Below, piece after piece: positions 58,569 to 63,243 of a stretch of DNA of 64,000 bases (positions within the stretch are counted from its first letter, which is position 1; every line of letters starts with the position of its first letter). Under the pieces are notes generated by a model. The model was not told where the DNA came from and did not search any database. It was given only the letters and a program-made list of their open reading frames with translations. The DNA is from Chloroflexus aurantiacus J-10-fl (lineage in GTDB: Bacteria; Chloroflexota; Chloroflexia; Chloroflexales; Chloroflexaceae): positions 4,836,001 to 4,900,000 of the forward strand of contig NC_010175.1 of NCBI RefSeq assembly GCF_000018865.1, written 5' to 3'. Both the position numbers and the translations under genes were made by a program.

Positions 58569-59582
58569 TCACTCACCGCTAAAAAAACCTGCTCCAGCCG
58601 CCAGCGCAATTGCCCGCCGTGGCTCAATTACACGAGGACCATGCGGGTTAAAGCGCAATATCGCCGACTCGCCGGCTCGCAATTCTATTTCGCGTTCGCC
58701 ATCAAAGGCCAGTACCGCCGGTCGCTCACGACAGACGATCACCGTTTCACCGGGAGCCAGTATCCGATGCTCCGCAACGTGAACGGTTTGCATCAGGCCC
58801 GGTGCCACAGGTGCCCGTACCGGTTTCCCGCTAGCGGCAAGCCGCAAATACAAGCCGTGACCTGATGGATACTGACCGGCCAGCGCATGCGCCCCAATCG
58901 ATGACAATCCAATATTGCCCGGTTCGGTGCGCGTCAGTACCAGATCACTGATCCGCGTGCTGTCCCAGATAGCGCGTGCGGCGACAAATCGCTCGTCGTA
59001 GACAGCAGCATCCACCAGCGCTATATCATCCGGTGTTGTTTCGTGCAGTTGATCAATCGCCTGCGGCGTAGCCAGGCGGTAGACATCAATTCGTGGGGCA
59101 CGAACTACTGCCGCGTCGGCCCGACCACACGCGACCAGCCCTGCCGCCAGGCCGGCGGTGGTCGCTTCAATCATCAATGGAAAGACATTATTGGTGCCGG
59201 TTGATATTGGCATGAGCGGTACATCACCACACCCCTTGGCAACCAGTCGATTGGTACCGTCCCCGCCGAGAGTCACGATACAGCCAACGTTACGTTCAGC
59301 AAACAACCGTGCCGTGCGTAACGTGTCGTCAGGCGTAAACCAGGCCGGTATATCGAGGAGCGTTGCTTCAATCGTCAACGGGAGATTGTCGAGCGCCTTG
59401 AGGCCAATCCCGAACCGATCCGGCATGATCCAGACACGCTGAACCCCAACGGCTTCCAACCCTAGCAGAACCCGCTTAACGATGCTGACCTTCTCTTCAT
59501 TGTCAAACACCGAGCCATGCGCTACCAGCCGCCGAATATCCTTCCCTGATGCCGGATTAGCGATGATGCCAACAGTAACCAT
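58569..59582 (-). CDS. acoX: AcoX, NAD kinase-like protein of acetoin operons
   Basis: 337 residues. GIIANPASGKDIRRLV at the start, TLGGDGTNRLVAKG near 105 (the GGDGT nucleotide motif of the NAD-kinase/diacylglycerol-kinase superfamily), STGTNNVFP near 128, and a C-terminal beta domain (VLAFDGEREIEL). AcoX is regularly found with acoABC, but its exact reaction is not established. Last gene of the aco operon, 105 bases after the acoC-like stop. Confidence 0.88.
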   Translation of the reverse strand: MVTVGIIANPASGKDIRRLVAHGSVFDNEEKVSIVKRVLLGLEAVGVQRVWIMPDRFGIGLKALDNLPLTIEATLLDIPAWFTPDDTLRTARLFAERNVGCIVTLGGDGTNRLVAKGCGDVPLMPISTGTNNVFPLMIEATTAGLAAGLVACGRADAAVVRAPRIDVYRLATPQAIDQLHETTPDDIALVDAAVYDERFVAARAIWDSTRISDLVLTRTEPGNIGLSSIGAHALAGQYPSGHGLYLRLAASGKPVRAPVAPGLMQTVHVAEHRILAPGETVIVCRERPAVLAFDGEREIELRAGESAILRFNPHGPRVIEPRRAIALAAGAGFFSGE

Positions 59583-59687: not shown

Positions 59688-61085
59688 TTACGATGACCTG
59701 ACAACAGGGAGTGCCTGTTGCAGAAACTCAACGATACTGTTCGTTACCCGAATAAATCCTGCACTTCCCGGTAGCACCCAGTTGAAATGGCTCATACCGG
59801 GAATAACCTCCAACCGCGCCGTTGCCCCCGCCCGCTCGACGATAGCCTGCGCTTCTGCCAGCGGCACAAGCTGATCGGCATCGCCGTGAATCACCAGCAA
59901 CGGTCGCGGGGCAATGTTACCCGCTATATCCTCCGGAGCGTACTCGATCAACGCTTCAGCACTTGCCAGCGATAACGTCACCTTCATCTGGGGGAACTCA
60001 GCCGCAACCTGATCGAGAAACGCCTGCGATTCCGGATCGGGTAATACAATCTCTAACGGATCGACCAGGCTTGACTTCCCAGTCAGCACCCGCTGCCGGC
60101 GATCTTCAGCCAGGTGCGCCAGGAATTGACTCCATTCCCACTGCCGACGCAAACTCCGTAACCAACGCGCACCGTTGCCGGGCGGCTCCAATGCCACCGC
60201 TGCACGAACTCGCCGATCAAGGGCAGCGGTTGTCACTGCGTGCGCACCACCCAGACTGATCCCGATCACAGCCATGCGCTCAGGATCGACAGTCGGCTGG
60301 TTGGATAGGAATGTCAGGGCAGCCCGCGCATCCGCCACCTGCTCAAGTGGCATGAGGCGACCCCGCTCTCCTTCACTCTCGCCAAACCCACGGTAATCGA
60401 AGACGAGTGCAACATAGCCGGCAGCATTGAGCACTTTGGCGATGTCGGGCATCACCATCGTCTTGAGGTAGGTATAGCCGACCAGCAATACCACACCTGG
60501 CCTGCGTTCACCCGGTGCTAGATCACGAGGCGTGTACAGCAAGCCATCAAGACGATGACCATCACTGTAGAAGCCGACCCGCTGGAGCGGCTGTACTGGC
60601 GTCGCCCGGGCTGCAATGGCTCGCTCAACATCTTCCCGGATAATCGCCCCACCAGGGCCACTCCCGACCAGCGTGCTCAAATCAATCCCATGCTCTTGGG
60701 CCAGCTTGCGCGCCGCCGGCATGGCGCGCGGTGCAGCGGTACGGGCTGGTGCCGGCGGCAGAGACACTGCCGGCGTATCTTGAACGGCAACCGGAGCCGG
60801 AACCGTCTCTACTGCGCCATTCCCGGCCACCTCGACCAGCCGCTCACCGGGAGCAGTGATGTAGGCGATAACCTTCGTCACCGCCACAACGCTCCCTTCC
60901 GGATAACACAGCCGCGCCAGCGTTCCACTCACCGGAGCTTCAACGACATTCGTGATCTTCTCCGTTTCCACCTCTGCAATTGGCTCACCCTGCTGCACCG
61001 ACTCGCCTTCGCGCTTGAGCCAGAGGTTGATCTTTCCCTCTTGCATGCTCAAGCCCCACTTTGGCATCACAACCTCGGTAGGCAT
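59688..61085 (-). CDS. AcoC-like protein: lipoyl domain, E3-binding domain, alpha/beta hydrolase
   Basis: 465 residues. The lipoyl domain (about 1-78) has the lipoyl-lysine in AEVETEKITNVV. A Pro/Ala linker follows, then a peripheral subunit-binding domain (PAARKLAQEHGIDLSTLVGSGPGG, about 125-160). From about 170 an alpha/beta hydrolase of the S9/dienelactone type is seen: VFDYRGFGESEG, GISLGGAHAV with the nucleophile Ser, HGDADQLVP and GMSHFNW. The normal E2 acyltransferase domain is absent. Known AcoC proteins also combine lipoyl and hydrolase parts, but the E3-binding domain in between is less usual. It transfers acetyl from AcoAB to CoA. Confidence 0.88.
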   Translation of the reverse strand: MPTEVVMPKWGLSMQEGKINLWLKREGESVQQGEPIAEVETEKITNVVEAPVSGTLARLCYPEGSVVAVTKVIAYITAPGERLVEVAGNGAVETVPAPVAVQDTPAVSLPPAPARTAAPRAMPAARKLAQEHGIDLSTLVGSGPGGAIIREDVERAIAARATPVQPLQRVGFYSDGHRLDGLLYTPRDLAPGERRPGVVLLVGYTYLKTMVMPDIAKVLNAAGYVALVFDYRGFGESEGERGRLMPLEQVADARAALTFLSNQPTVDPERMAVIGISLGGAHAVTTAALDRRVRAAVALEPPGNGARWLRSLRRQWEWSQFLAHLAEDRRQRVLTGKSSLVDPLEIVLPDPESQAFLDQVAAEFPQMKVTLSLASAEALIEYAPEDIAGNIAPRPLLVIHGDADQLVPLAEAQAIVERAGATARLEVIPGMSHFNWVLPGSAGFIRVTNSIVEFLQQALPVVRSS

Positions 61086-61114: not shown

Positions 61115-62149
61115 TCAGCCAAATGTCGCCCGCGCCGCTGCCACAATCCGCTCAGGCGAAGGCACATAGGCATCTTCCAGTGTCGGGCTAAACGGTACCG
61201 GGGTATGCGGCGGTGTGACCAGCTTGACCGGCGCATTCAAAAATTCCAGCGCCTGTGTCGCCGCCAGGGTGGCAATATCGCCCGCCACACTGCACCGTGG
61301 ATTATCTTCATCAACCACAACCAGACGGCCGGTCTTCCGCACCGACTCCAGTACCGTCGTCTCATCGAGTGGTGATAAGGTGCGAAGATCAATGACTTCA
61401 GCGCTGATACCTTGTTGCGCTAATCGCTCGGCCGCCTCTAAAGCGTGCAATACCATACGAGAGATGGCTACAATCGTGACATCACCACCTTCGCGCTTCA
61501 CATCAGCCTGCCCAAGCGGAATAACATATTCACCTTCGGGAACCGGCCCTTTCATATCGTAAAGCAGTTTGTGCTCACAGAAGATAACCGGGTCATCGTC
61601 ACGAATAGCCGCTGCCAGCAATCCCTTCGCATCAGCCGGAGTCGCCGGCGCAACCACCTTCAGGCCGGGGAAATGAACAAACGTCGAGTAGATCGAGTCG
61701 GAGTGCTGGGCTGCTGCCCGAAAACCGGCCCCGATCATCGTCCGAATGACGAGTGGAATGCGCGCCTTGCCACCGAACATGTAGCGCATCTTGGCGGCCT
61801 GATTGACGATCTGGTCGAGGCATACCCCCATAAAGCCGATGAACATCAGCTCAACCACCGGTCGTAGACCGGTTGCCGCTGCGCCGACACCGGCTCCAAC
61901 AAATCCCGACTCGGTAATTGGCGTATCACGCACACGCTGACGGCCAAATTCGTGTACTAAACCCTTCGTCACCCCCAACACCCCACCCCAGGCATCAAGA
62001 TGGCTCTCGTCTTCACTATGGGATGCTCCGGTGACATCTTCACCCATTAAGATAACCGTTGGATCGCGCCGCATCTCAAGACGCAATGCCTCATTGATCG
62101 CCTCACGATAGCTCAGAGTACGTACTGCCTCTTCAACCATTGCAGTCAT
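61115..62149 (-). CDS. acoB: Acetoin dehydrogenase E1 beta subunit
   Basis: 344 residues. The transketolase pyrimidine-binding part (MGEDVTGASHSEDESHLDAWGGVLGVTKGL, DTPITESGFVGAGVGAAATGLRPVVELMF) is followed by the C-terminal transketolase domain (EVIDLRTLSPLDETTVLESVRKTGRLVVVDEDN). With AcoA it oxidatively cleaves acetoin using TPP; pyruvate dehydrogenase E1 beta is similar, but acoX and the acoC type decide. 29 bases before the acoC-like gene. Confidence 0.88.
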   Translation of the reverse strand: MTAMVEEAVRTLSYREAINEALRLEMRRDPTVILMGEDVTGASHSEDESHLDAWGGVLGVTKGLVHEFGRQRVRDTPITESGFVGAGVGAAATGLRPVVELMFIGFMGVCLDQIVNQAAKMRYMFGGKARIPLVIRTMIGAGFRAAAQHSDSIYSTFVHFPGLKVVAPATPADAKGLLAAAIRDDDPVIFCEHKLLYDMKGPVPEGEYVIPLGQADVKREGGDVTIVAISRMVLHALEAAERLAQQGISAEVIDLRTLSPLDETTVLESVRKTGRLVVVDEDNPRCSVAGDIATLAATQALEFLNAPVKLVTPPHTPVPFSPTLEDAYVPSPERIVAAARATFG

Positions 62150-62226: not shown

Positions 62227-63243
62227 CTAGCGTCGTACTGCGACGGCAGCTTCCTGGAAGGGCCACAAAGCCGACATCGGATAATCAACATAGACATCGG
62301 TCAACAGCTCTGCCGGATCGGGCAATGGGCTTTCGGCAGCGAAGCGTACCGCATCTTCCACCGCGGCACGAGCACGGGCATCGATCTCATCAAGCTCAGC
62401 AGCCGTCAACAATCCCTGCGCTGTCACAGTCTGGCGAAAACGGTGGAGACAGTCGAGCGAGCGATAATGAGCTTCCTCATCGCGAGTGCGATAGCGGATC
62501 GAGTCACCCTCGAAGTGACCATAGTAGCGATACGTCTGCGCCTCGATAAACGTCGGGCCTTCCCCGCGCCGGGCACGCGCTACAGCTTCACCGGCTGCCT
62601 CGTAAACGGCAAAGAAATCGAGGCCGTCAATGGCAATGCTCGGCATACCAAACCCACGTGCGCGTGCAGCGATGTCTTGCCCGGAAACAGAATAACGGGG
62701 TGACGTCGTCTCGGCGTAGCCGTTATTCTCACACACAAACACGACCGGCAATTTCCAGATTCCCGCCAGATTCAGACCCTCAAACGTCGTACCCTGATTC
62801 GACGCTCCATCACCGAAGAAGCAAACCGTTACCTGATCGGTACCCTTGATCTTCGCGGTCAGACCGGCACCACAGGCCAGTGGCGGGCCGCCACCAACAA
62901 TGCCGTTGGCGCCAAGCATGCCCTTATCGACATCGGCAATATGCATCGAACCGCCTTTGCCCTTACAGGCTCCTGTTGCCTTGCCGTAGATCTCGGCCAT
63001 CATCGCCCGCAGATCGACTCCCTTGGCAATGCAGTGCCCGTGACCGCGATGGGTGCTGGTAATAAAATCATCATCCCGCAGGTGCGCGCAGAGACCAACA
63101 GCTACCGCTTCTTCACCGGCATACAGGTGAACGAAACCAGGTATCTTCCCGGCAGCAAAATCGGTGTGCAACCGATCCTCGAACTCACGAATGAGCCGCA
63201 TCCGCTCATACGCCCAGAGGAGTTTCTCCCGACTGATGTCCAT
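62227..63243 (-). CDS. acoA: Acetoin dehydrogenase E1 alpha subunit
   Basis: 338 residues. The TPP motif FFGDGASNQGTTFEGLNLA...ENNGYA lies near 165-205, GFVHLYAGEEAVAVGL near 35, HRGHGHCIAKG near 65 and the phosphorylation-loop-like YRYYGHFEGDS near 260. It forms the E1 heterotetramer with AcoB. First gene of the operon, with a promoter about 190 bases upstream. No dihydrolipoamide dehydrogenase gene is present, so E3 must be shared. Confidence 0.88.
   Translation of the reverse strand: MDISREKLLWAYERMRLIREFEDRLHTDFAAGKIPGFVHLYAGEEAVAVGLCAHLRDDDFITSTHRGHGHCIAKGVDLRAMMAEIYGKATGACKGKGGSMHIADVDKGMLGANGIVGGGPPLACGAGLTAKIKGTDQVTVCFFGDGASNQGTTFEGLNLAGIWKLPVVFVCENNGYAETTSPRYSVSGQDIAARARGFGMPSIAIDGLDFFAVYEAAGEAVARARRGEGPTFIEAQTYRYYGHFEGDSIRYRTRDEEAHYRSLDCLHRFRQTVTAQGLLTAAELDEIDARARAAVEDAVRFAAESPLPDPAELLTDVYVDYPMSALWPFQEAAVAVRR

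Follow-up and report, generated by a model that had tools for sequence, protein, structure and literature searches.

A lipoyl, E3-binding and alpha/beta hydrolase fusion in place of a canonical E2 in a likely acetoin dehydrogenase operon of Chloroflexus aurantiacus

The fusion gene and its operon

The window analysed here is a stretch of 64,000 nucleotides from Chloroflexus aurantiacus J-10-fl (contig NC_010175.1, positions 4,836,001 to 4,900,000), and at 59688–61085 of the window lies a minus-strand gene for a 465-residue E2-like protein that joins a lipoyl domain, an E3-binding domain and an alpha/beta hydrolase domain. The start codon is at 61085 and the stop codon at 59690–59688; the initial annotation had the coordinates right, and the plus-strand frame across the same stretch has several stops. 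All features given below are on the minus strand. The lipoyl domain occupies residues 4–76 (60858–61076; Pfam PF00364, Biotin_lipoyl, E 7.9e-17), with the lipoyl lysine K43 in the motif ETEKIT (codon 60957–60959), and is followed by the E3-binding, or peripheral subunit-binding, domain at residues 119–154 (60624–60731; PF02817, E 9.3e-17). The hydrolase domain, about residues 166–462 (59700–60590), was delimited from Pfam, an AlphaFold model and a match to PDB entry 7qjm (Z 47.1 with the hydrolase model, residues 164–462). Its Hydrolase_4 match covers residues 212–433 (E 4.2e-20) and, like the lipoyl and E3_binding matches, lies above the curated cut-off. A helical insert, the lid, spans about residues 305–390, and the predicted catalytic residues are the nucleophile Ser277 in GISLGG (60255–60257), the acid Asp404 (59874–59876) and the base His433 (59787–59789).

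In 2-oxoacid and acetoin dehydrogenase complexes the E2 core is both catalyst and scaffold. A canonical E2 shares with the fusion the lipoyl and E3-binding domains and the E1 neighbours, but it has the PF00198 (2-oxoacid_dh) catalytic core. No such core was detected in the fusion by Pfam at E ≤ 0.01, nor is PF00198 among the 17 families matched by 18 fusions at E ≤ 0.001. The original proposal that the E2 acyltransferase core is gone, that a hydrolase with a full Ser-Asp-His set stands instead and that the E3-binding domain is retained is thus borne out. Elsewhere in the genome PF00198 matches five frames, four of them strong (canonical E2) and the fifth weak, with matches in 10 of the 14 control genomes; the loss of the core is therefore specific to the fusion complex. 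A separate E2-like protein of 427 residues in the same genome (L008:1258-2538, about 335,300–336,580), which has an E3-binding domain, a short PF00198 match and a weak lipoyl match in which the region of the lipoyl lysine reads TAHAEW, with no lysine, is by its sequence a degenerate or repurposed E2.

The genes for the E1 subunits lie upstream of the fusion gene and an AcoX-like gene lies downstream, all on the same strand. The AcoB-like E1 beta subunit (61115–62149) was identified by Pfam Transket_pyr and Transketolase_C and by its place in an E1beta tree, the AcoA-like E1 alpha subunit (62227–63243) by Pfam E1_dh (E 4.6e-101), and the AcoX-like protein, of the NAD_kinase/DAGK type (58569–59582), by Pfam NAD_kinase (E 2.2e-9); the last has no PDB relative at E ≤ 0.01. 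Between 52000 and 57000 of the window, short ORFs resemble, by eye, repeat-rich (RHS-like) and transposase fragments.

Full-length matches of the fusion type were found in 18 of 400 Chloroflexota genomes, that of C. aurantiacus included; this and the other genome searches described below were limited to 4 to 8 scored candidates for each genome. All 18 aligned homologues have the lipoyl, E3-binding and Hydrolase_4 domains, and K43 and the three triad residues are invariant in them, so the domain set is not a chance one. E1alpha and E1beta adjoin the fusion at all 18 loci and an AcoX-like gene is near at 17. The ten closer loci have the order E1alpha-E1beta-fusion-AcoX; among the eight with fusions 45–51% identical, seven have fusion-E1alpha-E1beta-AcoX, and the eighth, L085, has E1alpha-E1beta-fusion with no AcoX in the stretch examined. 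Between the C. aurantiacus fusion and its homologue at L074, dN and dS are 0.041 and 1.06 for the lipoyl domain, 0.155 and 2.26 for the E3-binding domain and 0.097 and 1.70 for the hydrolase; dS is near saturation, and no value was obtained for the linker, in which 22 of 35 aligned residues differ. All three domains thus look to be under constraint. AlphaFold run on the 18-row alignment gave a mean pLDDT of 83.8 and a pTM of 0.65, with residues 87–117 below 50. The protein is, as far as its sequence tells, a real, conserved and functional-looking subunit.

A second search for relatives gave full-length matches only in Chloroflexota, and it was insensitive, having missed the 45–51% identical kind. 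With query A1, neither the phylum of G401 (296 genomes) nor that of G406 (247 genomes) gave a full-length match at E ≤ 1e-60, although hydrolase-only matches occurred in eight and five genomes, respectively; the same result for the phylum of G402 (199 genomes) shows little, there being no match at all. A plasmid search with the fusion protein returned 18 records, none covering 80% of it. Four further Chloroflexota matches, all weak, had looked as if they reached into or beyond the E3-binding domain; they were set aside, as blastp aligned them only from about residue 160.

The three-part layout and AcoC-type proteins

That a hydrolase can stand where E2 has its core is already known, as the AcoC model itself (NF011457 / PRK14875) shows. 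AcoC, like the fusion, joins a lipoyl domain to an alpha/beta hydrolase and adjoins E1alpha, E1beta and often AcoX; unlike the fusion, its hydrolase belongs to another subfamily (Abhydrolase_1), and 10 of the 16 AcoC-type proteins have no E3-binding domain. Matches above the cut-off of the AcoC model were obtained in Chloroflexota (7 of 400 genomes) and in the phylum of G400 (3 of 299 genomes); among control genomes, 2 of 14 gave matches, none above cut-off.

In a non-random sample of 34 lipoyl-hydrolase proteins scanned with Pfam (L103, L104 and L106 left out; L120, with no lipoyl match, uncounted), E3_binding is present in 24: the 18 fusions and the proteins at L100 (the same as L107), L108, L131, L147, L148 and L149. 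The latter six have an AcoC-type hydrolase, unlike the fusion, and AcoX was seen only at L100. They come from three phyla or classes, namely other Chloroflexota, a deltaproteobacterium and alphaproteobacteria, and they rule out a three-part layout unique to the fusion. The L100 protein is from a nineteenth Chloroflexota genome (G352), which matches the fusion over residues 2–436. A plasmid search with this protein matched 144 records, 12 of which spanned 80% or more of it; the three of these that were checked all have three parts. The view that the layout sets the fusion apart was therefore mistaken, the same three parts being present in 6 of 16 AcoC-type proteins. As to whether such AcoC proteins are common, on which the initial annotation had made its case depend, the answer goes in part against that case: the layout recurs across phyla, although two-part AcoC proteins exist as well (10 of 16). 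Among open-licence literature, searched by titles and the starts of abstracts, no paper on the layout was found.

The proteins at L147:5677-7236, L148:5983-7281 and L149:5965-7263 are three-part AcoC-like proteins of alphaproteobacterial plasmid operons with no AcoX match, that at L147 differing further from the fusion in its two lipoyl stretches. The substrate of these operons is perhaps not acetoin.

E3_binding is absent from the proteins at L101, L102, L105, L110, L111, L135, L136, L137, L150 and L151. All ten adjoin E1alpha and E1beta, so complexes of this sort can do without the domain, which 10 of the 34 lack. AcoX lies beside six of the ten (L101, L110, L111, L135, L136 and L150) and was not seen at the other four, and is thus no strict marker. 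Canonical E2 genes lie beside AcoX at L046 and L132.

What, then, does the E3-binding domain do? The lipoamide dehydrogenase model found one gene above its cut-off in C. aurantiacus (3,799,809–3,801,200; 562.7 bits), the next scoring 286.3, below it; in the controls all 14 genomes gave matches, 11 of them above cut-off. This E3 gene is linked to none of the complexes, and the ORF beside it we take, from its first residues, to be a lipoyl synthase. With one gene above the cut-off, the fusion would have to share its E3 with the canonical complexes. An operon E3 gene that goes with the E3-binding domain was considered and ruled out: blastp of the genome's E3 against L069-L151 and L176-L186 revealed no E3 gene near either three-part or two-part proteins, its single match being at a canonical E2 locus, L134. 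Linkage to E3 consequently does not explain why the domain was kept. It is plausible that the domain brings E3 to the complex. In the E3-binding loop the four strong canonical E2 proteins of the genome and eight of the 18 fusions have an arginine (GGRI, NGRI, HHRV), which we take to help partner binding; the other ten fusions, the Chloroflexus-like ones, have A, V or T in its place, so their binding of E3 may be weak.

Origin of the hydrolase domain and the E1 partners

The initial annotation had treated the fusion as an AcoC protein with an extra domain, which is wrong in part. It scores 129.9 bits against the AcoC model, where the cut-off is 307, and its hydrolase belongs to a different subfamily. 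Among NCBIfam models the best match is to the UilS acyl-homoserine lactonase family (151.5 of 400 bits, below cut-off). The hydrolase domain scores 223 bits, at 44% identity, against a stand-alone Chloroflexota hydrolase and does not exceed 35 bits against those of the AcoC type, the highest such score of any of the 18 fusions being 40.8 bits; the AcoC-type hydrolases, compared with other stand-alone ones, score as high as 155 bits. Stand-alone Rhizobium hydrolases found in the plasmid search are 47% identical to the fusion hydrolase. Solved relatives of the fusion hydrolase are feruloyl esterases, monoacylglycerol lipases and DcsB, and those of the AcoC hydrolase at L150 are meta-cleavage and epoxide hydrolases.

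In a hydrolase tree of 54 rows with 16 of the 18 fusions (near-copies C_L071, C_L081, aco2_L103, aco2_L104 and aco2_L106 left out; stand-alone rows from 13 Chloroflexota loci of the fusion search and 9 of 29 from the AcoC-model searches), a starred branch parts the fusion hydrolases from the AcoC type. A single clade uniting these two types is rejected by 244 log-likelihood units (AU p 1.96e-50; 32 rows versus 22), from which it follows that there have been two or more replacements of the E2 core. The nearest kin of the fusion hydrolase are, by these comparisons, stand-alone hydrolases of a different subfamily from that of AcoC, and the fusion is best described as a variant of the AcoC kind that its hydrolase origin and model score place outside the AcoC family. 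The 18 fusions make up one side of a branch of this tree with support of only 90/54, so that a single origin for them is not established. In a tree of the lipoyl/E3-binding half (36 rows), 11 of 33 inner branches are starred and 15 are open. The hydrolases at L110 and L111 (L179, L180) and at L131, all adjoined by acetoin-type E1 genes, branch deeply, with long branches meeting at L131 (a program warning); they might represent further separate recruitments.

The E1alpha and E1beta of the fusion operon share 62% and 65% identity with their counterparts in a Mycetohabitans operon that has the order NAD kinase-E1alpha-E1beta-AcoC and also lipA. Their identity to the E1 proteins of three further E2 loci in the C. 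aurantiacus genome is 42–52% (E1alpha partial there). In a tree of E1beta with 12 of the 18 fusion loci (L103, L104 and L106 lacking), one starred set (99/97) holds the fusion type together with the E1beta of AcoC operons, that is, of ten two-part AcoC loci, L100 and L131, and of the canonical locus L067; the E1beta of L147–L149, which were excluded from the AU group, groups with canonical E2 loci. The joint E1alpha and E1beta tree also places the fusion partners with the AcoC-operon partners (100/99). L067, whose E2 has the PF00198 core, lies within the acetoin-linked set of the joint tree on a starred branch (100/100), and an E1beta tree in which it is kept outside is not rejected (p 0.137). 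One E1 lineage is therefore served by no fewer than two kinds of catalytic domain, and perhaps by a third.

The acetoin-linked E1 clade is named by its gene neighbours, and acoX is described in the cited part of the Pelobacter genome paper (PMC3543383) as typical of acetoin dehydrogenase clusters, with a function unknown. Because of the AcoX neighbour and the E1 identities, acetoin is the likely substrate, by association through gene neighbours and E1 trees. The cited part of a study of Thermomicrobium roseum (PMC6776052) mentions an "acetoin dehydrogenase complex" in nutrient-limitation responses.

A close homologue of the fusion, from Chloroflexus sp. MS-G, has been crystallised (PDB 7QJM). 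Its hydrolase domain is 83% identical to that of the fusion and its sequence includes the E3-binding segment; unlike the fusion, the construct has no lipoyl domain and is presented as a PET hydrolase, enzyme 202. That the construct starts after the lipoyl domain is seen from its first residue, which aligns at fusion residue 83; the modelled chain of 301 residues matches only fusion residues 164–462. The part of the original report cited here (PMC9772341) notes a peripheral subunit-binding domain in enzyme 202 and an active site covered by a helix that might move aside; its main text nowhere uses the words lipoyl, acetoin, dehydrogenase, lipoate or multienzyme. We read 7QJM as the C-terminal part of a putative lipoyl-E3-binding-hydrolase E2-like subunit. 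As far as the open-licence literature shows, this link to a crystal structure and the independent origin of the hydrolase are new.

Proposed chemistry, alternatives and implications

With E1 genes of the acetoin type on one side and an AcoX-like gene on the other, the fusion gene is read as encoding an acetoin dehydrogenase E2-like subunit. In the mechanism that we favour, and consider rather more probable than its competitors taken together, E1alpha and E1beta would use thiamine diphosphate to split acetoin and would charge the lipoyl K43 with the acetyl group, and the acetyl-lipoyl arm would move into the hydrolase domain. There Ser277, with His433 and Asp404, would take the acetyl group as an acyl-enzyme and then give it to CoA, and a lipoamide dehydrogenase held by the E3-binding domain, shared with the canonical complexes, would re-oxidise the arm. 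The initial proposal that the hydrolase either hands the acetyl group to CoA or sets it free is plausible; given what such a complex is for, the likeliest fate of the group is to pass to CoA by way of acyl-Ser277. The nucleophile serine is lost in 5 of 13 stand-alone relatives and the triad is kept in 18 of 18 fusions, which suggests that serine chemistry is required in the complex. The five relatives (L090, L091, L092, L094 and L098, with GWGLGG and similar motifs) are possibly non-catalytic or carry out other chemistry. Arginine and tryptophan residues of the lid are invariant in the fusions, and they are no sign of CoA binding since each is common to at least 5 of the 13 stand-alone relatives.

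The main rival to transfer is hydrolysis, in which the domain would act as a thioesterase that frees acetate from the acetyl-lipoyl arm, and acetoin would yield acetate and acetaldehyde with no acetyl-CoA. ABHD11, a serine alpha/beta hydrolase like the fusion domain and its nearest precedent in chemistry, is known to act on acyl-lipoyl thioesters and frees glutarate from a glutaryl-lipoyl peptide, with hydrolysis, no transfer and no specificity for glutaryl-CoA, according to the part of the work cited here (PMC12643935); unlike the fusion, it is mitochondrial and works on glutaryl adducts of another protein. The nearest kin of the fusion domain among stand-alone hydrolases, its sub-threshold match to a lactonase family and its structural neighbours, esterases, lipases and the thioesterase DcsB, point the same way. 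Complexes of the acetoin dehydrogenase kind conserve thioester energy, however, and hydrolysis would waste it, while AcoC proteins in similar operons are annotated (by annotation only) as acetyltransferases; hydrolysis to acetate seems to us unlikely. A quite improbable alternative is that the hydrolase clears wrong acyl adducts off the lipoyl arm, CoA transfer being left to a canonical E2 in trans. The four strong PF00198 genes of the genome could supply such an E2, and ABHD11, which removes an acyl group from lipoate by hydrolysis (PMC12643935, PMC7426941), offers a precedent. Against it, all 18 operons encode the hydrolase and the lipoyl subunit as one protein, and the locus scans, which rest on three E2 reference proteins, found no second E2-like ORF in stretches of 11–19 kb around 17 homologues, nor, by genome search, near the C. 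aurantiacus fusion. That the protein serves to hydrolyse polyesters or other esters, its further domains being accessory, in line with the way enzyme 202 was presented, we hold to be very improbable: 7qjm_A does align with residues 83–462 (phmmer E 2.3e-193), and enzyme 202 was screened as a PET hydrolase candidate (PMC9772341, in the part cited) and is tabulated as a PETase in the cited part of a second paper, but the solved construct begins after the lipoyl domain, PET activity in the group is described in the cited part of PMC9772341 as sparing, with the active site of 202 completely buried, and all 18 genomes have the gene in an operon with E1 genes.

Returning to the favoured reading of acetyl transfer by an E2-like subunit, its most general form would be that the E2 acyltransferase of one kind of complex has been replaced at least twice, each time independently, by serine hydrolases of different subfamilies, with an acyl-serine relay in the present case, where the complex lacks the usual E2 core, and a shared E3 tied in by the E3-binding domain that was kept; to this whole combination we give an even chance. 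If hydrolases of different subfamilies did take over repeatedly, the scaffold and the catalyst of these complexes would be separable, and complexes that lack the usual core would need another way of holding together. The structure published for a plastic hydrolase, 7QJM, would on this reading show the catalytic half of a metabolic subunit, and this crystallised homologue offers an immediate experimental handle. It would also be a warning that the mining of genomes for enzymes of the hydrolase fold may catch metabolic subunits.
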